A stretch of 64,000 bases of DNA from Candidatus Flexifilum affinis (GTDB lineage: Bacteria; Chloroflexota; Anaerolineae; Aggregatilineales; Phototrophicaceae). The stretch covers positions 321,077 to 385,076 of the forward strand of contig JADJPJ010000089.1 of the NCBI GenBank assembly GCA_016713325.1, read 5' to 3'. The position numbers and the translations under genes are program-made. A model generated the notes under the pieces. The model saw only the letters and a list, made by a program, of their open reading frames with translations, had not been told where the DNA came from and did not search any database. Position 1 is the first letter of the stretch. The number at the start of each line of letters is the position of its first letter. Positions 24,175 to 48,016 of the stretch are shown here, piece after piece.

Positions 24175-26352
24175 TTATTCCGGACTGGTCACCGCCGAGG
24201 GAGGGGCTTTCAGGTAGGGGAGGCGAACCGAAAATGTCGAACCGGCGCCGACGAGGCTATCCACGTGGATCGATCCGCCATGTAGAGCCAGAGCGTCGCG
24301 CACCATGGCCAATCCAAGGCCCGCGCCGCCAATGCTGCCGACGTTTGAGGCCCGGTAGAAGTTCTCGAAGATTAACTCCAGCTCATGTGCCGGGATGCCG
24401 ATGCCAAAATCCTGAACCACGATGGTGGCCGCGTCGTCACCGCCATTCACCTGAACGCCGATGGTGCCGCCGTTGGGCGAAAACTTCACGGCGTTGCTCA
24501 GCAGATTGACGATCACCTGAAGGAGGAGATTGCGATCCAGAATGACCTGCCGACTCACGCCATGATAGGTGCACTCGATTCTGTGATTCGGCGCAGAGAT
24601 CTGTATCTCGTCGGCCAGGCTTCGACAAACCGCCTGAAGGTCGATTGACTCGGCGATCATGGTGACTTTGCCGCTCTCGACGGCGCGAATGCTCAGCATT
24701 TTGTCCAGCAGGCGGACCATGTGATTGACCTGGTCGACGATCTGATCCAGCTTTCGGTCGCGACTCTCGTCGGTCATGCGCGATCCGTAGCGGCGGATTG
24801 CTTCGACCGAGAGGTTGATGATCGAGAGCGGCGTGCGAATCTCGTGGGACATGTTGGTCACGAACAGCTCGCGCATGCGATTGAGTTGAAGTTCCTTATC
24901 CAGCGCCCGGGTCAAGTAGGCTTCTGCGCGCTTGCGCTGGGTTGCATCTCGAAAAGAGGCGATCAATCCGCGGAAGCGGCTCGCCTGGTCGTAAATCGGG
25001 TACGTGATGGAATCGGCGTGAATAGTCGTCCCATCGACGGTGTTGAGACGGTTTTCTCCGCGCCAGCTCCCTGGAATCCCTTCGATGATCGCGACTCGCC
25101 CCGCAACGGTGGACTGATCGGGTTCGATCTCCCGGTACACGTTTTGCCACCAGTGGATGTCCAGGCATTCGCTGGCTTCGGTCGCGGCTTCTTCATTGCG
25201 GAGAATGCCAGGCCCGCCCAGCCAGTTGGCGACCGCATAACCGGACACTTTGCCTGCGACGAGATTTTCGAAGCCGATATAGGATGTGACGTCGACCCCC
25301 TCTATAGGTTCGAGCTGGTTGACGACAATCACCGCAATTCCGGCGTTCAGCGCCTTGCGCAGCGCCAGCTTGACGTCATCAATGGCGATCGTCGACAGAG
25401 CAATGGCGTCGACTCCCTCGGCAATATAGTCTTCGATGATGGCGATCTGACCTGAGAGATCTTCGGGCGTGAATGGGGAGCGGGTCACGATGTTAACATT
25501 CAGCCCGTGCTGCATCGCATCCTGTGCGGCCTTCTGGAAATACTCGGTCGCGGTACGATAGACGCCGGTATCCCCCATCTGAATCCAGCCGATGACGATG
25601 CGCTCTGGTAGTTTTCTCTCGGCCTTGAGCATGTCCCAATCAATCGGCTCCAGCGAAAGAGTGGGGTAGAACGAATCGACATTCTGCCTGTAGACTGTGC
25701 GCGGCCGAATGTCAAAGGATGCTGGCACGGGATGACCCAGCGCGTGCATGATCGCGAATTTCGCCCCGTACCATCCCCACTCGGCAAATCCGTGATGGGT
25801 CTCCGCCACAAGTTCGCCGGCGCGAATACGCTCGACGGATTCTGGCGTGACATCGTTGGAGAAGATCCGTACTTCGTTCTGGCGCCGCGCCTGTTTCACG
25901 GCTGCGAGTGCGCCCAGCGCCATTTCACTGGAGGCAGCCCAGATCACGTCGAGCGCGCCTGGAGGGTTGATGCGCAGAAGGTCCCTGGTGATGTTGTAAG
26001 CAACCTCGCGGTCCCAGTTCGCGGCCTCCACGCTGATGATCTTCACGGCGGGGAAGCGATCGAGCACCTCTCGAAAACCGCCCAGGCGCGCGGCGGAGAA
26101 AAAGCTGCTGGCGCCGGCCCATTCGGTGATCTGGTTCAGCAGGGGAAGGTCTTCGCCAAACCAGATGGCGGACAGCGGCTGGCCGACGATATCCTGCCCC
26201 ACGAGTTTCTTGCAGGCCTCGTTGGCATAGACAATTTGAAACGTGGCGTCCGTGGTCAGAATTGCATCAATGGAGTTATCGACGATGTAGCTGAAAATGC
26301 GAGGCTCATCGTCGTCCTGGGCATGCGATGCGGGAAGGTAATACGGCGGCAC
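24175..26352 (-). CDS. Chimeric PAS histidine kinase with embedded, lobe-swapped sugar-binding domain
   Basis: A protein of 725 residues without membrane segment or signal peptide, so cytosolic. Residues 20-80 are the first half of a PAS domain (SIDAILTTDATFQIVYANEA). Residues 84-242 resemble the C-terminal lobe of a type 1 periplasmic sugar-binding protein (ARLGGFREVLDRFP, NWDREVAYNITRDLL, AASSEMALGALAAV, EWGWYGAKFA). Residues 249-427 resemble the N-terminal lobe plus hinge (IIEDYIAEGVDAIALST, IAVIVVNQLEPI, then GRVAIIEGIPG). Residues 429-475 are the second half of the PAS domain (TVDGTTIHADSITYPIYD). HisKA follows with His503 (MSHEIRTPL), then HATPase (LLSNAVKFSPNGG, DFGIGIP). In the family the N-lobe precedes the C-lobe, so the insert is circularly permuted. 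The start is a GTG. No receiver gene is adjacent. Confidence 0.85.
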   Translation of the reverse strand: MPPYYLPASHAQDDDEPRIFSYIVDNSIDAILTTDATFQIVYANEACKKLVGQDIVGQPLSAIWFGEDLPLLNQITEWAGASSFFSAARLGGFREVLDRFPAVKIISVEAANWDREVAYNITRDLLRINPPGALDVIWAASSEMALGALAAVKQARRQNEVRIFSNDVTPESVERIRAGELVAETHHGFAEWGWYGAKFAIMHALGHPVPASFDIRPRTVYRQNVDSFYPTLSLEPIDWDMLKAERKLPERIVIGWIQMGDTGVYRTATEYFQKAAQDAMQHGLNVNIVTRSPFTPEDLSGQIAIIEDYIAEGVDAIALSTIAIDDVKLALRKALNAGIAVIVVNQLEPIEGVDVTSYIGFENLVAGKVSGYAVANWLGGPGILRNEEAATEASECLDIHWWQNVYREIEPDQSTVAGRVAIIEGIPGSWRGENRLNTVDGTTIHADSITYPIYDQASRFRGLIASFRDATQRKRAEAYLTRALDKELQLNRMRELFVTNMSHEIRTPLSIINLSVEAIRRYGSRMTDESRDRKLDQIVDQVNHMVRLLDKMLSIRAVESGKVTMIAESIDLQAVCRSLADEIQISAPNHRIECTYHGVSRQVILDRNLLLQVIVNLLSNAVKFSPNGGTIGVQVNGGDDAATIVVQDFGIGIPAHELELIFENFYRASNVGSIGGAGLGLAMVRDALALHGGSIHVDSLVGAGSTFSVRLPYLKAPPSAVTSPE

Positions 26353-30450: not shown

Positions 30451-32460
30451 CTATTCCCAAAGCAGTTGGAAGTCGAAGACCGAGTCGCCTTCATTCCACT
30501 GCGGGAAGTTGGTGCCCCAGACATTGTTGAATAGATTGATGTGAACGCCGTCGTTCATATTCGGGAGTTCGTTCGTGAAGCGCAGCAGGGAGGGCGTGCC
30601 AGGGGCGATCAGCGGCGCATCGCGCGTCACGAAGGTGAGTCGCTTCTGCTGGTGCAGACACTGAACGCGATCGAAGACGGCATGCAGGCCGCGGCTGCCG
30701 CCGGAGACTACGCGCGCCGGGTCGATCCACTGGCCGAGCTTCTCGAAGCGCCACTCCGCACCCGGGGCAATCGGCATGAACGACAGCCAGAGCGCCTCCG
30801 GAATCCGGCAGGCGGGCTTGTTCTGCCAGGCCAGCCGAATGTCGATCTGCGGCCGATTCTCGGACACGTTGTAATTCAGCGTGACGCGGGGCGGTGCGCC
30901 ATATGCAGCCGACCATTCTTGCGGAATGGCGAGTGCCGCGGTGATCGAAAGACCATCGCCGACCGGTTCGACGCTCAAGCTCTCGATCGGCGCCGGCGTC
31001 CTGGGGATACGGACACCCTTTCCAGCCAGGCCGGGTTTCCTATAGTCATACTGCGCCCAGGCGGAAACGGCGGGCCGGTCCTTGCTCTGAATGTACTCCG
31101 CCCAGAAGCGATCGTAGTCAGCGTCGTCGAACGTCTCGTAGCGGAACAGCACCAGCGGCTGTTGAGCGGATGCCCACATCCGCCGGTCGCTGCGGGTCTG
31201 CAGGTGCTGGATCGCCCCCGTCTCCGGATCAAGCTCGATCTCGAAGTGGCGGGTGCTGAACTGACGGGTGTCGCTGCGCCAACCGGTCGAGCGGCGCGGC
31301 ATCATCGGTGGCAGCAGGGCATCCGTGGCGGCTTCGTGCCAATGTGTGCCTTCCAGTGCCGAGACCGCCCGGTCGACGTAAGCCCGCTGTTCGTCCCACG
31401 AGGCCTGCATGGTCTGGAAAGGCGGGGTAGACCGCGCCGCCGCCAATGCCTCGGCGGTGTACGAGTCGTACTGCGCCAGATGCATCTTGGTATCCATGCC
31501 CCAGGTGTGCTCGGCCACGCACAGGAGCGCATCCTGAAAGGCGTCCAGCGCTCTTGGAGGAGCCGACTCCGGGGTCTGGACGATGTCGCGGCGCAGCCGG
31601 ACCAACTCGCGCCAGGCGCGAACCTTCTGCGGATCGGTACCGACGCCGTGAATCCACGAATCGCCGATCTCGTCGGTCAGGACCGGCAGTTGGTCGCGCA
31701 CGGCCTCGAGCGCGGCGGCGAAGGTGTCCAGCGTCGTGGGCAGGATCTGCGCCGACGGAAACTGCTGGCGCAGGTCTCCGTAGACCTTCTTCAGCGCGTC
31801 CAGGCTGGGCGGTCCGATATTGTCGCCGGTCATCTGAACTGCCAGGGCATCGCTCAGCCCGTCGGCCTGGACAATGCCGCCGTAGTGATGTTCGTAGATC
31901 ATCAGCAGTTCGTGGCCGCTCGCCTCATCGCGCCAGACAAAAACGGGCGGTACATGGGGCATGGTCGAGGCCTCGTTGACCCCGATGTGCAGCAGCTTGA
32001 TGCCGGCGCGGGCCATGAGCGGGATGACCCCGCGAGTATGGCCCGGCACGTCGGTCATCTTGGCGGCGATGGTCCGGCGGCCAAAACGCGCGTCGAGACG
32101 CTGCGAGAGGCTCAGACCGTAGCGGAACAAGTCGGGGTCCATCAGTTCGGTATGGGTGGTGAAGGGCAGCGCGTGCCAGGCAATATCGCCGGCCGCGATC
32201 GCCGCTTCCATCTGGCGACGGCCGGCGCTGGAGGCCTGTTCCAGAAAGTGGTAGATCAGCCACGAACCGGTCGTCCAGACGAACCGGTCGGTCGCGCCAC
32301 CCTCGCGCGAGGCCCGGGCCAGGCGGAGCGCCGCCGGGATGAAGTCGTCCACATAGTGACGAAACACCGCGTTCGCCATGTCGGTGAAACCGAGGTCGAG
32401 ATGAGTCTTGAAGACCAGATGTATCTTTTCAACCGACTCGTGGTGATCCGCTTGTGCCAT
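30451..32460 (-). CDS. DUF5054 protein (GH38-like glycosidase superfamily)
   Basis: A protein of 669 residues starting with IHLVFKTHLDLGFTDMA, a His-x-Asp motif like the metal site of GH38/GH57-type alpha-mannosidases. Later blocks include FVWTTGSWLIYHFLEQA, the ITWHALPFTTHTELMD-like region, KMTDVPGHTRGVIPLMARAG and HTWGMDTKMHLA. The C-terminal half is beta-rich (HFEIELDPETGAIQHLQT), like the mannosidase C-terminal sandwich. I recall this as DUF5054, whose substrate is not established. No signal peptide, so cytosolic. It lies 15 bases after the PHP gene and at the end of the ABC-transporter operon. This suggests cleavage of the imported glycoside. Confidence 0.8.
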   Translation of the reverse strand: MAQADHHESVEKIHLVFKTHLDLGFTDMANAVFRHYVDDFIPAALRLARASREGGATDRFVWTTGSWLIYHFLEQASSAGRRQMEAAIAAGDIAWHALPFTTHTELMDPDLFRYGLSLSQRLDARFGRRTIAAKMTDVPGHTRGVIPLMARAGIKLLHIGVNEASTMPHVPPVFVWRDEASGHELLMIYEHHYGGIVQADGLSDALAVQMTGDNIGPPSLDALKKVYGDLRQQFPSAQILPTTLDTFAAALEAVRDQLPVLTDEIGDSWIHGVGTDPQKVRAWRELVRLRRDIVQTPESAPPRALDAFQDALLCVAEHTWGMDTKMHLAQYDSYTAEALAAARSTPPFQTMQASWDEQRAYVDRAVSALEGTHWHEAATDALLPPMMPRRSTGWRSDTRQFSTRHFEIELDPETGAIQHLQTRSDRRMWASAQQPLVLFRYETFDDADYDRFWAEYIQSKDRPAVSAWAQYDYRKPGLAGKGVRIPRTPAPIESLSVEPVGDGLSITAALAIPQEWSAAYGAPPRVTLNYNVSENRPQIDIRLAWQNKPACRIPEALWLSFMPIAPGAEWRFEKLGQWIDPARVVSGGSRGLHAVFDRVQCLHQQKRLTFVTRDAPLIAPGTPSLLRFTNELPNMNDGVHINLFNNVWGTNFPQWNEGDSVFDFQLLWE

Positions 32461-33861: not shown

Positions 33862-34929
33862 GTCAATCGGTTCCCGTCTGCACCATAGAAGAAGACCCGG
33901 TCGACGTCCAGGGCCAGCCAGAGGCGATCCGGCAGGTCGGGGATCTCGTCGCTGAACAATCGGACTGAAACCAGGTGCTCTCCGACGTGAGTCACGACCA
34001 GCGACTCGCCGCCGAGCATCTGCGTGACGTACAGCCGCGCGGGCAGCGTTCCCGGCTCCTCGACCGTGCGTATGCTGACATACTCCGGTCGAATGCCGAG
34101 TGTCACGTTGCCGCGCGCCCCAGCAGGCAGCGGTCCTGACCAACGCAGTGCTGTGCCGTCGTCGAGCGTCAGGGATTGCGAGGCGGGATCAACCGTACAT
34201 TCGAGCAAATTCATCGGTGGGCTGCCGATGAATCCAGCCACAAAGGTGTTCAGCGGTGTCTGGTAGATGGCCTTCGGACTGCCCACCTGCATGATCTTGC
34301 CCTCGTTCATCACCACGATCACGTCGGCCAGCGCCATCGCTTCGGCCTGATCGTGGGTGACATAGATCGATGTTACGCCGACTTCCTTCTGCAAGTGTTT
34401 GAGGAAAGCGCGGGCTTCCAGTCGAAGTTTGGTGTCCAGATTGCTCAACGGCTCATCATAGAGGGTGACCTGTGCCTTATGGATCACGGCGCGGGCAAGG
34501 GCGACGCGCTGCTGCTGTCCGCCGGAGAGCTGCGAGGGCCGCCGGTCGAGCAGGATGGCCGATCTGGAGCTGTTTGGCGACCTCCTGCACCCGCCGCGCG
34601 ATCTCGTCATGCGGAGTGCTGCGCACTTTCAGCGGATAGCCGACGTTCTCGGCGACGGTCATATGCGGGTAGAGGGCATAATCCTGAAAGACCATGGCGA
34701 CGTCGCGGTCGCGAGGCGGAAGCTGGGTCACGGCCTTCGAACCGATCTCGATCGACCCGGAGTCGGGCAATTCCAGCCCGGCGATCATGCGCAGGGTGGT
34801 CGTCTTGCCGCAGCCGCTCGGTCCCAGGAGGGCGACGAACTGCCCGTCCTCCACATGCAGATCGATGTCATCGACGGCCTTGACGGGGCCGAAATGCCGC
34901 CGCAGCCGGGTCACCTGGATAGAGGCCAT
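33858..34929 (-). pseudogene. Sugar ABC transporter ATP-binding protein, interrupted by a frameshift
   Basis: Two overlapping frames make one MalK-type ATPase. The upstream frame has Walker A (LLGPSGCGKTTTLRM) and the Q-loop (MVFQDYALYPHMTV). The downstream frame has the signature LSGGQQQRVALARA, Walker B (VTLYDEPLSNLD), the H-loop (YVTHDQAEAM) and the C-terminal regulatory OB domains to DGNRLT. Removing one base of the GG at 34,553-34,554 restores QIGHLLDRRPSQLSGG. As written, the protein ends before the signature motif and cannot hydrolyse ATP. It could be a sequencing error, since all surrounding operon genes are intact. The gene starts with a TAATG overlap on the permease gene and ends with a GTGA overlap on the PHP gene. 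Confidence 0.85.
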
Positions 34930-35753
34930 TACTGCTTGATCCCTCCAAAGAAGCGGAAGCCGTAGCGTGCGTTGATGAGCAGGTACAAGAACAGTACCGG
35001 CACGGTGTACAGGACGGCGTAGGTTGAGACGAGTGGAATGTTGGGCGTACCCTCATCGCTGTAGAACTGATAGAAAGCGATCGATGCGGGGCGCATATCG
35101 GCGTTCCGGATGAGAATGAGCGGCGTCAGAAAAGACCCCCAACCGTTGACGAAGGCCAGCACTGCCACGACCAGGACGCCCGGTCGCAGAGTCGGGAAGA
35201 CAATGTCGCGGAAGATTTGCAGTGAACTTGCGCCGCTGACCATGGCGGCTTCCTCGTAGGAGCGGGGGAGGCCGTCGATGAAGTCGCGCATGATGAATAT
35301 CGAGGTGGGCAGCATGCCACCAACGATGGTCAGGATGACGCCCTGATACGTATTAAACATGCCCAGGTTGAAGATGAGCACGAAAATGGGCACCAGACTG
35401 GCGGTCCCGGTCACGACCGACGAGAACAACAGGAGGATGTAGGTGATGATGTTTCGCCCCGGCACGTTGCCGCGCGAAAAGCCATAGGCGGCCAGGGTCG
35501 CGATTATCGCCGTGAGAATCATCACGCCACCACTGATCAGGACGCTGTTCTGCGCAAGCGACCGGATGGCTGTCTCGTTGCTGAAGACTGCCTGAAAGTT
35601 GTTGAAGGAAAAGGTCTCGGGAACTCGAACGGCCAGCGTGGCCCGTTCATTAAACGGTGCAAAGACAAACCAGAGCAGGGGCAGCAGGAAAAACAGGGCC
35701 AGTACCACCCCGATCAGCGTCGTGAGGAGACGCATCAGCCATCCGCTTCTCAT
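34929..35753 (-). CDS. Carbohydrate ABC transporter permease (MalG type)
   Basis: A permease of 274 residues with six membrane helices and the EAA loop, visible as YEEAAMVSGASSLQIFRDIV followed by FPTLRPG, which contacts the ATPase. N-terminal helix LTTLIGVVLALFFLLPLLW. Belongs to the binding-protein-dependent CUT1 sugar importer class. The start overlaps the previous permease gene by four bases (ATGA) and its TAA overlaps the ATPase ATG by one base, so the set is translationally coupled. The product forms the membrane channel with the partner encoded at 35,750-36,652. Confidence 0.93.
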   Translation of the reverse strand: MRSGWLMRLLTTLIGVVLALFFLLPLLWFVFAPFNERATLAVRVPETFSFNNFQAVFSNETAIRSLAQNSVLISGGVMILTAIIATLAAYGFSRGNVPGRNIITYILLLFSSVVTGTASLVPIFVLIFNLGMFNTYQGVILTIVGGMLPTSIFIMRDFIDGLPRSYEEAAMVSGASSLQIFRDIVFPTLRPGVLVVAVLAFVNGWGSFLTPLILIRNADMRPASIAFYQFYSDEGTPNIPLVSTYAVLYTVPVLFLYLLINARYGFRFFGGIKQ

Positions 35754-36652
35754 TGTGTTCTCCTCGTGCGGCTGATGACGAGATAGATGCTGGCCAGCGC
35801 GAGGTTGATGAGCATGACCGTGACGGCGATGGCGCTGCCGCGGCCAAATTCAAAGCGCTGCAGGCCGACGCGGTAGGTGAAGATAGACATCAGCTCGGTC
35901 TGATAGCTGGGCCCGCCCCCGGTCAGCAGGTATGGTGTGAAGGTGTTGAACGTCCACAGCGTAATCAGGATGAGATCGGTTGCGATCGTGGTCTGGAGCA
36001 TGGGCAGCAGAATGTCGCGGAACTGCTGCCAGCGTGATGCGCCGATCACCTGCGAGGTTTCCAGGTACGAGGGCGATATCGCGTTCAGCGCCGAGGTGAA
36101 CAGCAGCATGGAAAAGGCTGTTCCGCGCCAGGTGTTGAAGAAGATGATGCTGAGCAGGGGGTATTCGAGCAGCCAGTCCTGGCCGGTTAACCCAAACAGG
36201 CCGAGGATGTTGTTCAGCGTGCCCTGGGTCGGGTCCAGGAAGGCGAACCAGGCAAAGCCGATCACCACATCGGGCGTGATCCAGGCGATGATGGCCAGGG
36301 TGTAGACGATGTGACGGAGCAGATCGCTGCGCCGGTAGAAGACGAGCGCGATCAGCATGCCCAGTCCGGCCTGACCGATCAGCGCGGACCCCAGCACGAA
36401 CTGGAGGGTGATCCACAGACTGGAGCCGAACTCGCCCCGGTTCATCCAGGTGTCGGGGTTGAACAGCGCCGCATAGTTGTCGAGCCCAACGAACTGAGGG
36501 TTACGGGCGGCGGCCCCTGTCAGTGCCTGGTTGGTGAAGCTCATGGAGAAGATCGAAAAGAACGGATAGATCAAAAACAGCGCGATCAACAGGAAGGCGG
36601 GACTGATGAACGCCAGGCTCATCGGACGTGAAAGGGTATTTCGCCGCAGCAT
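35750..36652 (-). CDS. Carbohydrate ABC transporter permease (MalF type)
   Basis: A permease of 300 residues. The N-terminal helix ISPAFLLIALFLIYPFFSIF, the typical SFTNQALTG-like periplasmic segment and five further helices are visible. The EAA loop is PSYLETSQVIGASRWQQFRD followed by ILLPML. It pairs with the MalG-type subunit to import a sugar. It begins 78 bases after the binding-protein gene, separated from it by a strong hairpin at 36,686-36,717. That arrangement commonly lowers permease expression relative to the binding protein. Confidence 0.93.
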   Translation of the reverse strand: MLRRNTLSRPMSLAFISPAFLLIALFLIYPFFSIFSMSFTNQALTGAAARNPQFVGLDNYAALFNPDTWMNRGEFGSSLWITLQFVLGSALIGQAGLGMLIALVFYRRSDLLRHIVYTLAIIAWITPDVVIGFAWFAFLDPTQGTLNNILGLFGLTGQDWLLEYPLLSIIFFNTWRGTAFSMLLFTSALNAISPSYLETSQVIGASRWQQFRDILLPMLQTTIATDLILITLWTFNTFTPYLLTGGGPSYQTELMSIFTYRVGLQRFEFGRGSAIAVTVMLINLALASIYLVISRTRRTQ

Positions 36653-36685
36653 ACGCAGACATCCGTCTCAGGAAGACGAGGACGA

Positions 36686-36717
36686 GATGGAGGACGAGGT
36701 TTGGCCCGTCCTCCATC
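36686..36717 (-). terminator. Intercistronic hairpin between binding protein and permease genes
   Basis: A perfect 11-bp stem, GATGGAGGACG (36,686-36,696) with CGTCCTCCATC (36,707-36,717), and a 10-base loop. No T-tract follows, so it more likely stabilises the upstream mRNA or attenuates the downstream genes than fully terminates transcription. Confidence 0.5.
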
Positions 36718-36729
36718 CGCCTCTATCGG

Positions 36730-38103
36730 TTATTGGGTGAACGGTAGGTCGATGACGTTTTCCGCGCCGACGATTTCGGTGACTGCGACGGCGTACGCTT
36801 CCATTGCCTCCGCCGGGGTCATTTCGCCGGAGACCACGCGCTCGGTCATCAGGCGTGCCTGCTCGGACACGGCATTGTAATCGGCCACCTGCGGGCGGAT
36901 CTGCGTGAGCGGCAGAACCTCGTCGACCATCGCGGTCATCACGGCATCGCCGGTCACTGGCACATCCAGGCGGGCGCGGATGCGCGGCTGGAGGGCCTGC
37001 AGGGCTTCAAGCGTTTCAGCGCTGTACATGTAGCTCAGCAGCGCCCAGGCTTCTTCCGGATGCTCAGTGTTGCCATTGATGACGAAGCCGGTGCCGCCCG
37101 AAGCGGTCACGAAATCCTGACCGCGCCAGCCCATGCCTGGTTCCTGAGCCGGCATCTTGACGAAGCCGACGCGCGCATCACGGTTTTCCATCGGGAAGTC
37201 GCCGGTTGCGTTCAGAATCGACCGCCAGAAGAAGTCGCCCTCGATCAGCATGCCGACGGTGCCCTGCGAGAAGGCCTCGAAGGACAGATTGCGGCCGTTC
37301 TGGGCCAACTGCCAGCGGGTCTCGCCCAGTCCTTCTTCGTTGTAGATGGTGTTGTAGAGTTCGAGCGTGTCGAGGATGCCCTGACTGCGAACCGGCCACT
37401 TCTGCTCTTCATAGTCGTAGATGTAGGTGCCGGTGCCGAGCAGCGCCATCAGATAACCCTGGAGAGTTGTCGCCTCACCCATGGCCACGCCCGCGTTCAA
37501 CTGGAAGGGTACAACGCCTTCGACGTTATCGCGGATGGCGCGCGCGCCATCGAGAAGCTCCGTCCAGCTCGTCGGCTGCCAGTCCTCGGGAAGGCCCGCC
37601 TGAGCGAGGATTTCCTTGTTGACCCAGATCACACGGGCATCCGTGCCGCGTGGCACGCCGTAAACCTGGCCCTGATAGCTCATGATGTCCTGAATGCCGG
37701 CCGGAATCTGCGCCCAGCCTTCCCATTCGGTATAGGATGGAACCAGTTCGCTCAGCGGTGTCAGCAGGCCGGCGTCGATAAATTCCGGCAGCCAGAAGCC
37801 GTCGAAGCCCATCACGTCCGCGCCTTCGCCGACGCTCATGTCCAGCACGTACTGCTGCTTGAGATCCTCGCCGCTGATGTTGCTGCTGTCGATGACCTCA
37901 ACCGTGACCGGGGTACCTGCTTCCGCCATCGCGGCTTCAAAACCTGGCTTGACCGTCTCGGTCACCCACTGAAGCTCTGGGCCGCCGACGCCGGTGATCG
38001 AGACGGTCACCCCGTCCTGCGCCAGCACAAGCTGCGAGCCGAGAACGGTAACCAGGACGACCAGTAATGCCAACTTTGCAAAGACCGATAGGTGCTTGAA
38101 CAT
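36730..38103 (-). CDS. Extracellular sugar-binding protein of an ABC transporter
   Basis: A protein of 457 residues with a Sec signal peptide (LSVFAKLALLVVLVTVLGSQ, then LVLAQDG) and no lipobox cysteine. It has the solute-binding protein family 1 look: GFDGFWLPEFIDAGLLTPLS, MSYQGQVYGVPRGTDARVIW, VNKEILAQAGLPEDWQPTSW, GTVGMLIEGDFFW, EEAWALLSYMY. It delivers a sugar or glycoside to the two permeases encoded downstream. The start at ATG 38,103 has GGAGAA immediately upstream; the longer start at 38,139 has no better signal. The cluster's PHP and DUF5054 enzymes suggest an uncommon glycoside. A GTAC-containing palindrome at 38,182-38,191 lies upstream. Confidence 0.92.
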   Translation of the reverse strand: MFKHLSVFAKLALLVVLVTVLGSQLVLAQDGVTVSITGVGGPELQWVTETVKPGFEAAMAEAGTPVTVEVIDSSNISGEDLKQQYVLDMSVGEGADVMGFDGFWLPEFIDAGLLTPLSELVPSYTEWEGWAQIPAGIQDIMSYQGQVYGVPRGTDARVIWVNKEILAQAGLPEDWQPTSWTELLDGARAIRDNVEGVVPFQLNAGVAMGEATTLQGYLMALLGTGTYIYDYEEQKWPVRSQGILDTLELYNTIYNEEGLGETRWQLAQNGRNLSFEAFSQGTVGMLIEGDFFWRSILNATGDFPMENRDARVGFVKMPAQEPGMGWRGQDFVTASGGTGFVINGNTEHPEEAWALLSYMYSAETLEALQALQPRIRARLDVPVTGDAVMTAMVDEVLPLTQIRPQVADYNAVSEQARLMTERVVSGEMTPAEAMEAYAVAVTEIVGAENVIDLPFTQ

Positions 38104-38181
38104 TTCTCCGCTCCTCATATGAGAAAAGCATCTGGCCAAAGGGCAGCGAGTGTGAGCGCGCGATCTGCTCGCCGCTAAAAA

Positions 38182-38191
38182 GCTGTACAGC
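38182..38191. promoter_or_regulatory. GTAC palindrome upstream of the transporter operon
   Basis: GCTGTACAGC is a perfect 10-bp palindrome 79 bases before the binding-protein start. It shares the TGTAC half-site with the palindrome before the regulator gene, so it is a candidate site for that GntR/LacI-type repressor. Confidence 0.4.
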
Positions 38192-38204
38192 CCTCAAACA
38201 AGAA

Positions 38205-39341
38205 TTAAGTCGTATTTCTGAGCCGGGCGGTGGACCTGCGGACCACCAGTTTTGTCGGCAACAGGGTCAGGGTGTCGTCAATCTCTTCTCCTTCGATCAT
38301 GGTGAGCAAACGACGGGCCGCTTCACTGCCCATCAACTCGGTGTTCTGGGCGATCGTGGTCAGCGGTGGCATCAGATACTCGCTGACATCCAGGTTGTCG
38401 AAGCCAACGAGCGAGATGTCTTCCGGTACGCGGACCCCGGCCATGTGCGCGGCTCGCAGTGCCCGCATGGCCATCCAGTCATTGACGGCGAAGATGGCCG
38501 TCGGACGGTCCGTCTGCCGGAGCAGGTCGACCAGTGGGGCCAGCGCTGCTTCGTCGGCCGCGATGTACGCGTCATAGGAACTCAACTCGTTTTCATCGCC
38601 AAGCAGGATGGCCGGGCGTGACGGCAGCCCTGCATCACGCAGCGCATCCTGATAGGCGCGATAGCGCTCGCCCACCGACCACAGATCGAGGTGCGGGCGT
38701 GCCAGAAACGCGACATCGCGATGGCCCAGGTCGATCAGGTGCTGCATCGCCTGTCGGCCCCCCTGGTAGTTGTTGCTGGTCACACAGGGCAGCGCCACGC
38801 CGGGAACAGGACGATCGATCAGTACCACCGGCATTTCCTCGCCAATCGTTGCCAGCAGCCTGTCGTTGGTCGAGGGGCGCATGGCCCAGACGATGCAGCC
38901 GCTCATCCGATCCAACTGCATCTGTCGCAGCAGCCGGTCTTCCTCGTCAATCCGGTATTCTGTCGCCGCGAGATGCACCGAATAGCCCTGTTTGCGTAGG
39001 ACACGCTCCACTCCGCTGAGCAGATGTACGGCGAAGGTGCCGCGGAAGTCCGGAACGAGCATGCCGACGGTGCTGCGTGCGCTGGCCGCCGAGCGCGGTT
39101 CTGCGACAAAGGTCCCTTTGCCGGGGACTCGATAGAGCAGGCCTTCTTCCTCCGCGGAATGCCAGGCTTTCTGGACGGTGGCCCGACTGATATCCAGTTC
39201 ATTGGCGAGTTCCCACTCCCCAGGCAGACGCTCGTGAGGTTTCAGGACTCCGGTCATCACCTTGTGGCGCAGTTCGTCCAGGAGCTGCATGTGAAGTGGA
39301 AGTGAACTGTCCCGTTGGATCGCGAAGATGACCATGTCCAT
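38205..39341 (-). CDS. GntR-LacI hybrid transcriptional regulator (AraR-like)
   Basis: A protein of 378 residues. Residues 1-75 are a GntR winged helix (LPLHMQLLDELRHKVMTGVL, GEWELANELDISRATVQKAW, LLYRVPGKGTFVAEP). Residues 85-370 are a LacI-type sugar-binding core (VGMLVPDFRGTFAVHLLSGV, IDRPVPGVALPCVTSNNYQG, GHRDVAFLARP, DISLVGFDNLDVSEYLMPPL, EAARRLLTMI). This is the AraR arrangement, in which a sugar ligand releases the repressor from DNA. It stands directly upstream of, and co-directional with, the sugar ABC operon. A perfect palindrome CGTACATGTACG lies eight bases before its start, suggesting autoregulation. Confidence 0.92.
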   Translation of the reverse strand: MDMVIFAIQRDSSLPLHMQLLDELRHKVMTGVLKPHERLPGEWELANELDISRATVQKAWHSAEEEGLLYRVPGKGTFVAEPRSAASARSTVGMLVPDFRGTFAVHLLSGVERVLRKQGYSVHLAATEYRIDEEDRLLRQMQLDRMSGCIVWAMRPSTNDRLLATIGEEMPVVLIDRPVPGVALPCVTSNNYQGGRQAMQHLIDLGHRDVAFLARPHLDLWSVGERYRAYQDALRDAGLPSRPAILLGDENELSSYDAYIAADEAALAPLVDLLRQTDRPTAIFAVNDWMAMRALRAAHMAGVRVPEDISLVGFDNLDVSEYLMPPLTTIAQNTELMGSEAARRLLTMIEGEEIDDTLTLLPTKLVVRRSTARLRNTT

Positions 39342-41062: not shown

Positions 41063-44000
41063 TTATCCTGGCGTGGGCGGTTCTCCCTCTGGCGTTTGTG
41101 CCCAATCCTTTGCCGGCGCGGGGGGACCGTCCAGTGGAATGCTGAGGGTGAAGACCGTTTGACCCGGCTGTGAGTCCACACTGATGACTCCGCCATGCAG
41201 GTCGACTGCCTGCTTGGTGATACTGAGGCCGAGTCCAGTGCCAGAAATGGCCCCCACATTGCTCGCGCGGTGGAAAGGCTCAAACATATGGGGCAGATCC
41301 GCGGCTGGAATGCCGATGCCCTCGTCCCTCACCATCAGCACGAAGCGCGTTGTTTCACGGCGCAGTTCGACATAGACCGGTTTATCGACGGGTGAGTACT
41401 TGAGGGCGTTGTGAATCAGGTTACTGAACACCTGGCGCATCAGACGCTGGTCGAAGCTTGCCGGGATAGTTGTGGCCTCGCCGTGATACACGATCCGACC
41501 CTGGTACGCGGTTTGGCTCACAAATTCCTCAATGATCCTCTCGCAGAGTTGACGGGCATCACCTGCTGTTGGTCGGAATTCCATGCGTCCGGACTGGATG
41601 CGCGAGAGCTGCAGCACATCCTCGATAATCTCCCGCATGTGGCTCACTTGCAGCTGAATCCGCTCCAGACGTTCCTGGATCTGCGCCTCATTCATCCTGT
41701 CGCGATAGTAGGTCAGGGACTCGGCGGCTGCGAGGATCGAGGCCAGGGGGGTCCGGAATTCGTGCGAGGCCATGGATACAAAGCGCGACTTGAGTTGACC
41801 CAACTCCTGTTCGGTGGTCAGAGACTTTTGCAAACTCTCCTCGGCCTGTTTTCGCTGGGTGATGTCGGCGAACGTGGCAACGACGGCGTAGATCCGGTCT
41901 TCACCTGGCAGCAGAAGGGGCTGTGCATTGATCAGAAGCCAGGTCAGGCTGCTATCGGGCTTGTGCACGCCCATGACGACGTCAGACTGTGGTTCGCCAC
42001 TGCGCAGACTCACCATCGCCGGGTGCAGATTCCCTGGAAACGGCGAGCCATCCTCATGGATGGACCGCCAGCGCGGATCGAGGGAGCTTCGACCCATCAT
42101 CTGCTCGGCCGTTAGCCCGAGTAATCGTTCGGCCGCAGCGTTGCAGAGCTGGATCATGCCATCCTGATCCATGACGACAATGCCTTCATGCATGGCGGCA
42201 ATTGTGGTTCGGTAGCGCTCTTCACTCTCGCGCAGGGCATCTTCGGATTGCTTCTGTTCGGTGATGTCATGGATCAGTCCGACTATTTCGACTGGCGCGC
42301 CTGTATTTTCGTCCCAGACGATGGTGTTGGTGGAGTCGACCCATACATAGCGGCCATCCTTATGCTGCACGCGCTGCCTGACCGTGAAGTAAGTGGCGTG
42401 ATCGGAGAGCGCGCCCGTCATAGCACCCAACATCAGCGGACGGTCGTCGGGATGGAGCAGTTCCATGGAGTTGCGCCCGACCAACTCCTCGGGCGCATGG
42501 CCCGTAAGCCGAGGCGATGAGGCAGTGACGAACGTGAACGAACCGTCTGGCCCGAGTTTGACGATCACGTCCTTGATGTTTTCTGCCAGAAGCCGGTAGC
42601 GAAGTTCGCTTTCGCGCAGGGCGGTTTCGGCTTGCTTTCGATCCGTGATGTCGACATACGATCCCAATACGCCGATGATATCCCCGCCAGAACCTCGGAG
42701 CGGCAGCTTACTTGTTTGAATGACCAGCCGTTTGCCGTCGCTCGTAAGCAGGGATTCCTCGTATTCGTTCATAGGTTTGCTGCCCACGATGACAGATTGG
42801 TCATCGGCGCGGAATGCCTGTGCGTCGGCTGTGCCCCAGGGCATTTCGCCATCCTGCTTGCCGAGGATTTCCGCGGTGTCTGTCAGACCTGCATCTTCAG
42901 CAAACAGGCGGTTGCACCCCAGATAGATCGAGTCCCGGTCCTTCCAGAAGACGCGTACCGGCATGGTGTCCAATACCAGTTGCAGCATATTCTGCGATTC
43001 GCGAAGTTCGGCCTCGCTTCGACGAAGCGCCTCTTCTTTTTCCTTGATCTCGGTGATATCCCGGGTAATGCCTACTAAGCCGATGATTTCTCCCCGCAAG
43101 TTGCGCAGTGGGACCTTGTTGGTCAGCATCCACGTCTCGTGGCTGTTGCCCATGTTGACGTGTTCTTCAAGGTTAAGGAGGGATTCGCCCGTTTCAATGA
43201 CGCGTGTGTTGTCAGCGAGGATCTTTTCCAGCCGAGAGGAGGGCATCATTTCCTGGACCGGCTTGCGAGCGGCTTCTTCCGGTGAACCGAATCCCATCAG
43301 TCGAGCATGGGCGATGTTGTCCAGCATCATGTGCTGCTGGCGATCGTCAACATAGATGAAATCAGGCACCGCGTCGATGACGGTTCGAAGCAGATTGCGT
43401 TCCTCGGCAACGGCAAGCTCCGCCTGCTTGCGGATTGTGATGTCCTCGATGGTCACCAGCACGCCCACGATCTCCCCATTTGCATTGCTCAAAGGGATCC
43501 GATTGGTGAGCTGCCAGAGAGTGCTTCCATCCGCGGCGACTAACTGCTCCTCGATACCGAGTTCGGGCTGCCCGGTTTCGGCGACGAACCGGTCTCTCGC
43601 CTCCCAGCCAGCGGCCTGTTCGGGGAGGAAGTCACGGGCTGCTTTACCGATGATTTCGGCTGGAGATGTGCAACCCAGCGACCGCGCCTGCTTGCTGTTG
43701 GCTCCACGGAAAACGGAGTCCCGATCCTTCCAGAAAACGCGCAGTGGGATGCTCTCGATGACGTTGTTCAGCATCATCTCCGACTCGCGCAGAGTTTGCT
43801 CGGCCTTCCTGCGCTCTGTGATATTGCGCATGATGCAGACGATGCTGTTGACGGCGTCATTCGCGTGCTCCACGGGCGCGATGCTCATCTCGACGTCTAT
43901 CTCCGATCCATTCGCCCGTCTGGCACGCACCTCCACATGCTGCGTCTGACGTGTCTCCGCGACGGTCCGCAAAATGCTCTCAATGCTCGTGGCAGTGAGA

Positions 44001-47000
44001 GGATACAGGAACTTCGCGAGTTCTGTCCCATAGTAGCTGCCCGGCGCGAGGCCGAACATCACATCGAACGCTCGGTTGGCCTGTTGCAGGCCGCGATCGG
44101 GATCGACAAGCACGATACCGTCCGCGCTGTTATCAAAGATGGCCTCAAGTCGGTTCTTTGTACGTTCGAGCTCCGCTGTGCGCTCAATCACGCGCTGTTC
44201 GAGGAGGTCGTGAGCTTCCTGAAGCGCCTCTTTGGCCCTGTGGTGCTCCGTCATATCGATGTATGTGCAGTACAGTCGTTCCTGTCCATCGACCACGATC
44301 CCTACCGCAAAACCTTCAACAGCTCTCGTGCTGCCATCGGCAAGCCTCTGTTCATACTGACAGGAGGTGGCCTCGCCGTGTACAACCTGCGCCATTTTTG
44401 CCAGAATGACGTCCGCGGGCGCTATGTCGATCTCCAACATGGTCATCGTTCGGAGTGTTTCGAGCGGGTAGCCGTAGAACTCAATGGCCGCGGGATTGGC
44501 ATCGAGGATGCGAGCACTGACGGGATCGACGATCAGCTTCGGCAGGCGCACCCGTTCGAACATCTGGCGGTAGCGCTTTTCGCTGGCGATGAGACCCTGT
44601 TTTGCCTTCTGTTCGTCCGTGATATCCAGGACGAATGTACCGATGAGTGTCGAACCGGCCGCATGAGGGATAGGGAACTTGATCTCCAGCCAATGCGTAT
44701 CTCCGGTGATCTCGGGAAGAGTGTGACGAAATTCGAGAGCCCGATTCTCCGCCGTCACCTGAGCGTTTTCCTGAGCGATGAGGTCGATGAGCGGCGTGTA
44801 CTGACGATATTCAGATGTCCGTTTGCCGATCAGTTCTTCGGGCGATTTGTCGGTTGTTCTGGCGAAGTGCTCGTTGCAGTATAGCAACCGGTCTTCAGGA
44901 TCAGTGATGAGCACAGCCCCGGGGAAATTGTGCATAATCTCCTGGAATCGTGATTCACTGAGGCGAAGAGAAGTCACATCCATGTTATGGCGAATGGCAA
45001 TCCCAGCGATATGGGCAGCCAGACGAATGAGGCCCAGTTCGGTCTTGTTGGGATGTCGTACCTCCCCATAGTAAATGGCAAAAGTGCCAAGAACCGTGTC
45101 GTTGTCGCCCATGATCGGTTGCGACCAGCAGGCGCGCAGTCCGTGGGTGGCAGCCAGCCCTCGGAAATTCTCCCAGAGCGGGCTTGTCATAACATCTTCG
45201 ACGACGACCAGGCGTTTTTCGAAGGCGGCTGTCCCGCAAGAGCCCACGCCAGCGCCGATCTGAAGACCGTCGATCGCAGCGTTATACAAGTCTGGTAGAC
45301 TCGGAGCTGCGCCGTGGCGGAGTTGGCCGGTCGATGAGTCCAGCAGGAGAATCGCCGCTCTGATTTCAGGTTCGAATTCCTCGACAGCCCGGATCAGCGA
45401 CTCGAGAATGGCCGGTAGCGAGACAGACTCCGTCACTTTCTCCAGGATTTCGCTGATACGTCGACTGAGCGTATCCTGACGTTTTTGCTCGGTGATGTCG
45501 CGGTTGAGCGTGACTCCGCCTGTCACTACGCCATGCCGGTTGCGGACCGGGCTGACAGAGGCGAGGATGTCACGCTTCCTGCCCTCTTTTGTCCATTGGC
45601 GGACTTCGCCGCGCCAGTCACCAGACGCACCCAGCGCGCTCTGCGCTTCTTCTTGCGGAATGGCTGGCCACTCGGTTATGAGGAGTTCGTCGATTGGCTG
45701 GCCCATCGCTTCGTCTTTCGTCCAGCCGTAGATTTCGGACGCAGCCCGGTTCCACGTTGTGACGCGCAGCTCGTTATCTGTCGAGATGATGGCGTCAGAG
45801 ACCTGATTCAGGAGATCGGCCTGCGCTTCCACCACCGCCTGCATGTCCTTCAGTTCGGTGATTTCGATACCCATGCACTGAAAGGACTCGGGCTTTCCCA
45901 GGTCATCGGTCAGGCAGATGAACTCCCACAAGGTGTTTCGGATTCCGCCGTCGCGCGAAGGTTTGTCGAGTTCAACCTTGAACGACGTATCCAGCTGGGC
46001 AAGGCATTTCTCGACCGTAATCGGAATACGGGGATGGTGATATTCCAGGATGGAGTTGAGAGGGCTGCCTCCTGCGAGTCCATCCGGTTCATAAAGCCAG
46101 CCGAATTCCTCCTGGTATTTCTTGTTCCAGTAGGTCAGGCTTCCGTTTAGGTCGATGCGAATCACATAGTTCGTCTGCGACTCGATCAGGCTGCGGAGCT
46201 GCTTTTCGCTGGCCTGGAGCGACTGGTTGGCCGCGGTTCGTTCCGTGGTATCCCGCAAAACGGTCACATACTGGACGATCTCACCCGATGCATTTCGGAT
46301 AGGAGCCGACGACCACTCCAGGTGCATCACGCCACCTTGTTTCCGTATTGTCGTCAGATCTGCCGTGAACGGCAGGCCCGACGCGACCTTGTCGACCAGC
46401 TCCTGGAGGGTACTCATGTCGGCCTGGGGATCCAGCATCAGCAACGGATTTGTTCCAATGATGTCCTCGACCCGGTAGCCTGTGATCGCCGCGAAGGCAG
46501 GGTTGGCGAAGACCACCTGAGGTGTCAGATCCGTAATCATCAGTGCTTCGGTGCTGTGCTCGACCGCGGCCTGGAGCAGTTCCAGCTCATCCTCCGCCTC
46601 TACCTTATCGGTGATGTCGTGAACGGAGTAGAGCGTTGTTCCGCGCCCAATGGCGATCCGCTTTACGGTCACCAGTACATGGTGCGCATGATCTCCTTTG
46701 GCATAGACAGTCCGTTCGATGTTAGCGATCTCTCCGTGCTGTTCCAACAGCTCCGGATCAAATAGATTATCGCCCATTAGCCTGCCGACGCTGCCCATCG
46801 CCGCAATTTCTGACTCGCTATAGCCAAACAGGGGCGACACGCTCGGGCTGAGGAAGGTGAACGACCCGGACGAGTCGGTCATGAAGACGGCGTCAGAAAT
46901 GTTGCTCAGGGTGAGCCGGTGCAGTTCTTCCGACTGTCGCAGTGAAGCTTCGGCCAGCTTCTGATCGGTGATGTCTCGTGCGCTGTCGTTGACCACCGCC

Positions 47001-47791
47001 GGGATGCCCGCGCTGTCGTAGCTGATCCAGGCCCGGCGGTGCAGCCAGCGCACCTGGCCATCCTGCCTGACGATCCGATGGTCCAGCTCGGCATAGCCTT
47101 CACGAAGGCATTGCTGCATGGCGGCGTTTGCCAGTTCCAGATCGTCCGGGTGAACCACTTCTCTGAAGAAATCGCCATCCTTAAGAAATCGCTCTAGGGG
47201 ATAGCCAAAGACGGCGTCGTGGGCGGCACTGGCAAAGAGGAGCTTTCGGTCGGGCAGGGAGAGGGACAGGATGGCATCCTGCGTCGTGTTCAGGATGGCG
47301 CTCAGATGTTCTCGCTCAGCCGTCAGTTCATCCTGCATCCTGGCAACCTCGTCCCTTGACGGAATGGTCGCAGGTGCAGCCCTTTCGGTGGAAAACTCCT
47401 CCTGGATTATGGTGATAAGTTCATGGCCGTCCTGGCCGTCGACATACCCCTTTGCCCCCAGGCGCATCAATCGCACCGCATCCTGGACCGACGCCTGATC
47501 CGCGATGACCACCAGAGGGGCTTGTGGCTGAATGTGCTGGGCCAGACGAATCGCATCGGCCGTGCTGAATTCCGATACCGCATCTGGCGCCTCATCCGTG
47601 CACAGGATCAGATCCCACGCATGACTTCTGAGCGCCGTCGCGAATTCCTCTCGCGTTGTGCTCGGAAGAAAGTCGAAGTTGAACGTGGCTTCTTTTCGCA
47701 ACAGGTTAACGATGGATTCCGCTCGGGAGACAGAAGATGACAAGGTGAGAATCTGTCTTGGCGAAGGGAGATCGAGCAAAGATGGATTCAT
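41063..47791 (-). CDS. Giant soluble sensor histidine kinase with about 13 PAS domains
   Basis: About 2242 residues. The N-terminus (about 10-125) resembles a receiver domain (ILTLSSSVSRAESIVNLLRK, WDLILCTDEAPDA, APLVVIADQASVQDAVRLM). It lacks a clear phospho-Asp, so it may be a pseudo-receiver. By my reading 13 PAS/PAC units follow, five before and eight after one GAF domain. HisKA is FVSMASHEFRTPLASILAA with the phospho-His; HATPase shows NLIHNALKYSPVDKP, RDEGIGIP and GTGLGLSITKQAVDLHGG. No membrane helix is seen, so it is cytosolic. I chose ATG 47,791 (GGGAG upstream) rather than 47,839. No response regulator gene adjoins it. Confidence 0.9.
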   Translation of the reverse strand: MNPSLLDLPSPRQILTLSSSVSRAESIVNLLRKEATFNFDFLPSTTREEFATALRSHAWDLILCTDEAPDAVSEFSTADAIRLAQHIQPQAPLVVIADQASVQDAVRLMRLGAKGYVDGQDGHELITIIQEEFSTERAAPATIPSRDEVARMQDELTAEREHLSAILNTTQDAILSLSLPDRKLLFASAAHDAVFGYPLERFLKDGDFFREVVHPDDLELANAAMQQCLREGYAELDHRIVRQDGQVRWLHRRAWISYDSAGIPAVVNDSARDITDQKLAEASLRQSEELHRLTLSNISDAVFMTDSSGSFTFLSPSVSPLFGYSESEIAAMGSVGRLMGDNLFDPELLEQHGEIANIERTVYAKGDHAHHVLVTVKRIAIGRGTTLYSVHDITDKVEAEDELELLQAAVEHSTEALMITDLTPQVVFANPAFAAITGYRVEDIIGTNPLLMLDPQADMSTLQELVDKVASGLPFTADLTTIRKQGGVMHLEWSSAPIRNASGEIVQYVTVLRDTTERTAANQSLQASEKQLRSLIESQTNYVIRIDLNGSLTYWNKKYQEEFGWLYEPDGLAGGSPLNSILEYHHPRIPITVEKCLAQLDTSFKVELDKPSRDGGIRNTLWEFICLTDDLGKPESFQCMGIEITELKDMQAVVEAQADLLNQVSDAIISTDNELRVTTWNRAASEIYGWTKDEAMGQPIDELLITEWPAIPQEEAQSALGASGDWRGEVRQWTKEGRKRDILASVSPVRNRHGVVTGGVTLNRDITEQKRQDTLSRRISEILEKVTESVSLPAILESLIRAVEEFEPEIRAAILLLDSSTGQLRHGAAPSLPDLYNAAIDGLQIGAGVGSCGTAAFEKRLVVVEDVMTSPLWENFRGLAATHGLRACWSQPIMGDNDTVLGTFAIYYGEVRHPNKTELGLIRLAAHIAGIAIRHNMDVTSLRLSESRFQEIMHNFPGAVLITDPEDRLLYCNEHFARTTDKSPEELIGKRTSEYRQYTPLIDLIAQENAQVTAENRALEFRHTLPEITGDTHWLEIKFPIPHAAGSTLIGTFVLDITDEQKAKQGLIASEKRYRQMFERVRLPKLIVDPVSARILDANPAAIEFYGYPLETLRTMTMLEIDIAPADVILAKMAQVVHGEATSCQYEQRLADGSTRAVEGFAVGIVVDGQERLYCTYIDMTEHHRAKEALQEAHDLLEQRVIERTAELERTKNRLEAIFDNSADGIVLVDPDRGLQQANRAFDVMFGLAPGSYYGTELAKFLYPLTATSIESILRTVAETRQTQHVEVRARRANGSEIDVEMSIAPVEHANDAVNSIVCIMRNITERRKAEQTLRESEMMLNNVIESIPLRVFWKDRDSVFRGANSKQARSLGCTSPAEIIGKAARDFLPEQAAGWEARDRFVAETGQPELGIEEQLVAADGSTLWQLTNRIPLSNANGEIVGVLVTIEDITIRKQAELAVAEERNLLRTVIDAVPDFIYVDDRQQHMMLDNIAHARLMGFGSPEEAARKPVQEMMPSSRLEKILADNTRVIETGESLLNLEEHVNMGNSHETWMLTNKVPLRNLRGEIIGLVGITRDITEIKEKEEALRRSEAELRESQNMLQLVLDTMPVRVFWKDRDSIYLGCNRLFAEDAGLTDTAEILGKQDGEMPWGTADAQAFRADDQSVIVGSKPMNEYEESLLTSDGKRLVIQTSKLPLRGSGGDIIGVLGSYVDITDRKQAETALRESELRYRLLAENIKDVIVKLGPDGSFTFVTASSPRLTGHAPEELVGRNSMELLHPDDRPLMLGAMTGALSDHATYFTVRQRVQHKDGRYVWVDSTNTIVWDENTGAPVEIVGLIHDITEQKQSEDALRESEERYRTTIAAMHEGIVVMDQDGMIQLCNAAAERLLGLTAEQMMGRSSLDPRWRSIHEDGSPFPGNLHPAMVSLRSGEPQSDVVMGVHKPDSSLTWLLINAQPLLLPGEDRIYAVVATFADITQRKQAEESLQKSLTTEQELGQLKSRFVSMASHEFRTPLASILAAAESLTYYRDRMNEAQIQERLERIQLQVSHMREIIEDVLQLSRIQSGRMEFRPTAGDARQLCERIIEEFVSQTAYQGRIVYHGEATTIPASFDQRLMRQVFSNLIHNALKYSPVDKPVYVELRRETTRFVLMVRDEGIGIPAADLPHMFEPFHRASNVGAISGTGLGLSITKQAVDLHGGVISVDSQPGQTVFTLSIPLDGPPAPAKDWAQTPEGEPPTPG

Positions 47792-48016
47792 TGACTGTGC
47801 TCTCCCGAGGGCGCACTCACGGCCCTGTGTCTGCAACATTGTGCAGAGTTAATCTCTTAACTGAATCTAACACGCAATTCAGTCAAGGAGAATAAACACT
47901 CGACGGTCAGTTCACATGATCTTTGGCCTATGTAGCAGACAGAAATAGCCCACATCGCGCTGTAGTCGGGAACAAATCTGGGCTACAAGAAGAGCAGTTG
48001 AGCCTGAGGATCTGTT

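Follow-up and report, generated by a model that had tools for sequence, protein, structure and literature searches.

Gene and domain organization

The gene under study lies on the reverse strand (-) of the window, that is, the whole stretch of 64,000 nucleotides analyzed, and encodes a histidine kinase in which a PAS domain is interrupted by a solute-binding protein (SBP) with its two lobes in swapped order. Its features are as follows:

24175..26352 (-): whole gene, PAS / permuted SBP / PAS / histidine kinase; single ORF of 725 codons with a GTG start
26113..26310 (-): first part of the PAS, residues 15-80, ending at helix F; PAS_9/PAS matches and structure match with 3lyx
26062..26157 (-): predicted fused helix, residues 66-97, in which PAS helix F is continued by the initial C-lobe helix of the SBP, the C-lobe part carrying R89; AlphaFold2 model and W64-F93 spacing
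25627..26103 (-): SBP C-lobe, residues 84-242; Peripla_BP_4 profile 137-256, C-lobe ahead of N-lobe in 48 other proteins
25609..25626 (-): linker (residues 243-248) bridging the former C- and N-terminus of the SBP, variable in length among homologs; W239-W256 spacing
25072..25608 (-): SBP N-lobe and strand GRVAIIEG, residues 249-427; second Peripla_BP_4 stretch and BLAST order
24928..25068 (-): second part of the PAS, residues 429-475, from strand G onward; full PAS_9 match of the joined PAS, G425-L436 spacing
24886..24942 (-): predicted helix from the PAS to the kinase, residues 471-489; AlphaFold2 model
24685..24873 (-): HisKA, residues 494-556, with H503 in SHEIRTPL; Pfam (E 1.3e-12) and motif search
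24214..24537 (-): HATPase_c, residues 606-713, with N, G1 and G2 box motifs; Pfam (E 3.3e-27) and motif search

Helix F and strand G are named according to the usual designation of PAS elements. Both a phospho-acceptor histidine, which we take to be H503 of the SHEIRTPL motif, and an ATP-binding domain, of which N, G1 and G2 are presumably the ATP-binding boxes, are present.

Pfam recognized Peripla_BP_4 in two swapped stretches, the best of which (residues 87-206) corresponds to profile positions 137-256 (E 9.3e-39). When the SBP was re-sorted into the N-C order, a single unbroken match was obtained, extending from position 12 to 256 of the 258 in the profile (E 6.2e-44) and scoring 150.9 bits versus 134 for the two pieces. 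The split PAS taken alone gave a marginal match (PAS_9, 27.7 bits versus a cut-off of 27), and the two halves joined gave one complete PAS_9 match (2-103 of 103, 38.2 bits). When joined, the two halves can moreover be aligned over their full length with an uninterrupted PAS (residues 417-537) of another kinase in the window (26% identity, E 5e-9). The latter is a protein of 2258 aa (41063-47839, -) carrying many PAS domains along with GAF, HisKA, and HATPase_c.

Homologs and their distribution

A search with residues 1-480 yielded 168 proteins, 120 of which were among the matches listed, and a search with a 39-sequence profile (the query and 38 permuted homologs) yielded 463, again with 120 among the matches listed. 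The 183 distinct proteins listed were classified by BLAST of four pieces of the query (E 0.01). The arrangement PAS1-C-N-PAS2 occurs in 47 of them, the query's own record included (46 besides), and two truncated permuted forms were also present, one PAS1-C-N and one C-N-PAS2. Ordinary N-C SBPs account for 133 of the 183 and a tandem N-C-N-C protein for one. Nine apparent N-C-PAS1 arrangements, recorded when the PAS pieces were counted up to E 1, were put down to chance, as they were gone at E 0.01.

The same lobe order was thus sought and found in 48 other proteins (two truncated), located on other contigs and 50-60% identical, which speaks against a misassembly at this locus. An assembly chimera, or a recent microhomology-mediated rearrangement confined to one locus, might have been suspected from the AGC shared near both junctions, to which the preliminary description had drawn attention; given these homologs and the even GC3 of the five segments of the gene (0.70-0.75), the probability of this explanation is practically negligible. 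Since 48 other proteins show an identical order, an assembly artefact is ruled out, and it is as good as certain that the PAS1-C-N-PAS2 architecture of the kinase is real. The degree of identity between the permuted homologs indicates that the fusion is old, so that the original junction sequence is no longer visible and the three shared bases are uninformative.

An organism name is attached to six of the 48 further permuted proteins, and all six belong to the Chloroflexota (Caldilineaceae, three; Anaerolineae, two; "Chloroflexota bacterium," one). For the RecQ encoded in the window, nine of the 120 matches listed bear an organism name, and Chloroflexota, Anaerolineae, Aggregatilineales, and Phototrophicaceae are likewise represented among them. 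A scan of 84,980 species genomes, covering contigs of at least 3,000 bases and using patterns built from the permuted alignment, which fit all 49 of the 49 permuted proteins, detected 42 loci, none of them in the permuted form: 41 are in the normal order, and the last (L042) is a C-lobe piece only, at the end of a contig. The module is therefore rare in representative genomes and has so far been met with in MAG and metagenome contigs. Short-query searches gave no matches in 396 and 400 genomes, but having been run without a positive control they say little; a look-up in six genomes gave a match in one, covering residues 2-39 of 91 (E 5.5e-6).

Structure models and PAS junctions

The AlphaFold2 model of residues 1-490 (pLDDT 87.8, pTM 0.81) is that of a static monomer and hence shows no motion. 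The PAS fold is complete in this model despite the split: the domain is rebuilt across the insertion, 115 of the 118 residues of 3lyx being matched with an rmsd of 1.6 over model residues 15..473. Residues 84-427 appear to form an SBP-like clamp on this predicted intact PAS, as the model can be matched in order with PDB 5er3 over both lobes (286 residues, rmsd 4.8), giving no indication that the lobes fail to pair. The order PAS / C-lobe / N-lobe / PAS / kinase, as first proposed from the sequence, was borne out by the Pfam matches, the homologs, and the model, and the junctions lie where they had been placed, residue 84 beginning at 26,103 and residue 429 at 25,068. Homologs, profile matches, and the structure model also agree on what had been described as a circular permutation inside the PAS of a kinase devoid of any membrane segment.

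At the first junction, a single modeled helix (66-97) joins PAS helix F and the C-lobe helix, and at the second, the PAS resumes with strand 430-437 after strand 418-424. Confidence is lower at the junctions than in their surroundings (block pLDDT 84 for 71-80, 79 for 81-90, and 82 for 421-430). In the model of an ordinary SBP, VAIIEG belongs to strand 175-181, which is followed by helix 187-200. The suggestion in the preliminary description that the hinge leads into the PAS therefore needs to be amended: the position of the junction stands, but the loop that was opened is not the hinge itself, since in both the ordinary and the permuted models it lies between strand VAIIEG and the next helix. 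In a study on RBP, strand F is counted with the C-lobe (PMC9815098); by analogy, the VAIIEG strand may be inferred to be RBP strand F and thus the first strand of the C-lobe.

The spacing at the two PAS junctions is almost invariant. Between W64 (PAS) and F93 (C-lobe) there are 30 residues in 38 of the 39 members and 29 in one, and G425 and L436 are 12 residues apart in 39 of 39. The W239-W256 spacing, which includes the linker between the old termini, varies (18 residues in 33 members, 19 in two, 22 in three, and 23 in one; n = 39). If the coupling is mechanical and passes through the PAS junctions, this is the expected pattern: two junctions with the PAS fixed in length and a third one free. 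PAS domains frequently bind ligands, and the model contains an entire PAS core, so that the PAS itself might be the sensor (of a cofactor or redox cue, for example), the SBP only modulating it; as the invariant length of both connections to the insertion points to the SBP as the driver of the PAS, we regard this possibility as very unlikely.

As histidine kinases like this one function in dimeric form, it might be asked whether the lobes are swapped between two protomers, the clamp being formed across the dimer. The linker joining the lobes is short (18-23 residues from W239 to W256), and the monomer model, with a pTM of 0.81, can be superposed in order on the two lobes of 5er3, even if at an rmsd of 4.8. 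These data make an exchange of lobes quite unlikely, although a precedent of a kind exists in a single isolated RBP lobe, which is reported to form a segment-swapped dimer (PMC9815098).

Origin of the permuted module

A maximum-likelihood tree was built from the SBP part in the normal order, with 48 permuted sequences, 133 normal ones, and two tandem halves; P0042 was too short to be included. A single branch (SH-aLRT 99, obtained with a quick method on an unrooted tree without bootstrap) separates all the permuted sequences from the others. Apparently, the permuted SBP was put into a PAS a single time. One permuted protein, P0007, has remained 78% identical to an ordinary SBP, P0132, over 336 reordered residues, and for the query the closest ordinary SBP shows 55% identity over 337 residues. 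The end branch of the query is the second longest in the tree (0.78), which makes its place in the tree unsure.

Tandem duplication is a usual route to circular permutation. The tandem protein P0003 (766 aa) starts with a hydrophobic stretch and carries the complete SBP twice (N-C-N-C). Since it nests among the normal SBPs rather than at the base of the permuted group, it was rejected as an evolutionary intermediate and provides only a precedent for tandem duplication in the SBP family.

Binding pocket and predicted ligand

Based on alignments to 2ioy, we take residues R89, W113, S141, D167, H187, N345, and Q346 of the kinase to be the equivalents of R141, F164, N190, D215, Q235, D89, and R90 of E. 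coli RbsB, respectively, which presumably contact ribose. Six of these residues are conserved in nearly all the proteins of both groups: W113, S141, H187, and N345 in 48/48 permuted and 133/133 normal proteins, R89 in 47/48 and 133/133, and D167 in 48/48 and 132/133. E348, beside the pocket residues, is also conserved (48/48 and 131/133). Position 346, by contrast, separates the two groups, with Q in 46 of the 48 permuted proteins and L in 128 of the 133 normal ones.

The conservation of the six residues suggests that the pocket is under selection. If the insert were a ligand-blind relic or a docking surface, serving as a spacer or as a dimerization or protein-contact domain, these residues would be expected to be lost, whereas the permuted proteins have retained them (47-48 of 48) just as the transporters have; P0007, moreover, still closely resembles P0132. 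The long branch of the query and the change at position 346 in 46 of 48 permuted proteins would fit a relic, which we nevertheless consider unlikely. Judging from the residues it contains, the permuted pocket seems to be like that of the transporters and unlike that of RbsB. The presence of N345, Q346, and H187 instead of D89, R90, and Q235 of RbsB suggests that the ligand is not simply ribose, and the systematic change at position 346 that it may differ from the ligand of the transporters.

One of the ordinary SBP genes, from a Bacillota MAG (L003), lies beside genes for an ABC ATPase and a permease, an SDR, a Zn-alcohol dehydrogenase, a MocA-type oxidoreductase, and an aldehyde dehydrogenase; its further neighbors encode a GPI-type protein, an FGGY kinase, a xylose-isomerase-like TIM barrel, and a GntR-UTRA regulator. 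Seven other ordinary-SBP loci were found by eye only to be partly similar to this neighborhood. Our best guess is that the ligand is a sugar or a polyol, and it is likely that the kinase senses a small carbohydrate.

Cellular location, output domains, and neighboring genes

A strongly hydrophobic N-terminus, assessed by hydropathy only and not with a signal-peptide predictor, was present in 127 of the 134 normal or tandem proteins versus 2 of the 49 permuted ones, and in these two exceptions (P0122 and P0123) the sensor begins at about residue 380. The query has no hydrophobic N-terminal segment; its highest 19-residue hydropathy (1.43) is located within the SBP. The output domains identified in the 39 members scanned were HATPase_c (11), STAS (7), GGDEF (2), and MCPsignal (1). 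The permuted SBP-PAS is most likely a cytosolic, portable module serving several signaling outputs, a point absent from the preliminary description.

Three kinases (P0126, P0128, and P0130, the last from a precomputed domain list) contain a LacI-like Peripla_BP_3 in addition to the permuted SBP-PAS, that is, two SBP-derived sensors per chain. A C-terminal tail resembling a zinc ribbon (CxxCK...CxxC) occurs in 13 of the 49 permuted proteins (P0017, P0020, P0022, P0024, P0028, P0029, P0031-P0036, and P0040).

Upstream of the kinase gene, on the same strand, are aldehyde dehydrogenase, SDR, and glutamine-synthetase-like genes, and downstream is an MFS transporter gene. The kinase gene, whose neighbors are the MFS and aldehyde dehydrogenase genes, is not directly adjoined by a response regulator gene, and no CUT2-type permease was found among the 16 neighboring or selected window proteins scanned. 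Elsewhere in the window, two BPD_transp_1 permeases and an SBP_bac_1 protein are encoded beside a GntR/LacI-like regulator (34929-39341, - and 30451-32460, -), with a DUF5054 protein nearby, and a response-regulator receiver is fused to a Pkinase domain at 59241-60599 (-).

Proposed mechanism and comparison with known systems

PAS domains are among the commonest sensor domains, and how they pass a signal on is still a matter of debate. The kinase probably belongs to a modular type of cytosolic sensor of the Chloroflexota, in which a permuted RbsB-like SBP is nested in a PAS and the closure of the clamp drives the output. An RbsB-like (CUT2-type) SBP would have been opened in the loop between strand VAIIEG and the next C-lobe helix, its old termini being joined, and inserted between helix F and strand G of the PAS; kinases, diguanylate cyclases, STAS proteins, and a chemoreceptor would then have acquired the composite SBP-PAS as their input. 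Two attachments would hold the C-lobe to the PAS, one a continuous helix and the other a short link from strand to strand, the N-lobe swinging on its normal hinge. A cytosolic sugar or polyol might be gripped between the lobes, partly through R89 of the fused helix, and closure would move this helix and the neighboring PAS strand, a shift which the PAS might relay to the kinase via its C-terminal helix (471-489). Transmission of the closure through the fused helix is plausible. What the data show directly is the domain order, its recurrence, the conservation of residues, and the predicted fold; the ligand, the closure, and the direction and sign of the signal are what we infer.

We also lean toward regarding the module as a natural equivalent of the engineered domain-insertion biosensors, in which the gripping helix would be continuous with a PAS helix, closure would drive the PAS, and the cassette would be mounted on kinase, cyclic-di-GMP, STAS, and chemotaxis outputs. 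Here an SBP, a domain whose motion is well understood, is coupled to a PAS at two fixed points, so that a known mechanical input could drive PAS signaling, and the module, as the natural counterpart of these biosensors, would constitute a ready scaffold for cytosolic sugar sensors. Such plug-in SBP-PAS sensors appear to resemble those built by hand by protein engineers. The engineered switches include cpGltI in a red fluorescent protein (R-ncp-iGluSnFR1) and cpBLA in MBP, where a permuted domain inside another one couples binding to output, as proposed here (PMC6335823). Those switches are man-made, whereas the natural module has a PAS as its host and a signaling domain as its output. No published account of a permuted SBP within a PAS was found in the titles and abstract beginnings of the open-access literature, and the main text of one paper on PAS diversity does not contain "insert," "periplasmic," "permut," or "substrate-binding."

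The RbsB-like CUT2 SBPs (Peripla_BP_4; 2ioy, 2dri) have both lobes and the pocket positions in common with the query, which when re-sorted covers nearly the whole profile, but in the query the lobes are swapped, the hydrophobic N-terminus is absent, and the SBP is embedded in a PAS. In hybrid two-component systems of the BT1754 type (2x7x, entitled "Fructose binding periplasmic domain of hybrid two component system BT1754") and in the XylFII-LytS pair (5xsj), a histidine kinase receives its input from a type I SBP, as in the present case. The SBP of these systems is presumably outside the membrane and in the normal order, whereas that of the query is cytosolic, permuted, and within a PAS, with no membrane segment leading to the kinase. 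The LacI/GalR and GntR-LacI regulators, one of which is encoded at 38205-39341 of the window, are likewise cytosolic SBP-derived sensors, differing in their normal lobe order and end-to-end fusion with a DNA-binding domain.

5er3 was not among the sequence-search matches listed (the best 60 of 158, the best 60 of 147, and 55 matches), and no paper naming it was found in the open-access literature. This solute-binding protein of Rhodopirellula baltica is free-standing, unlike the query, and judged by its in-order structure match, it may be a natural circular permutant.
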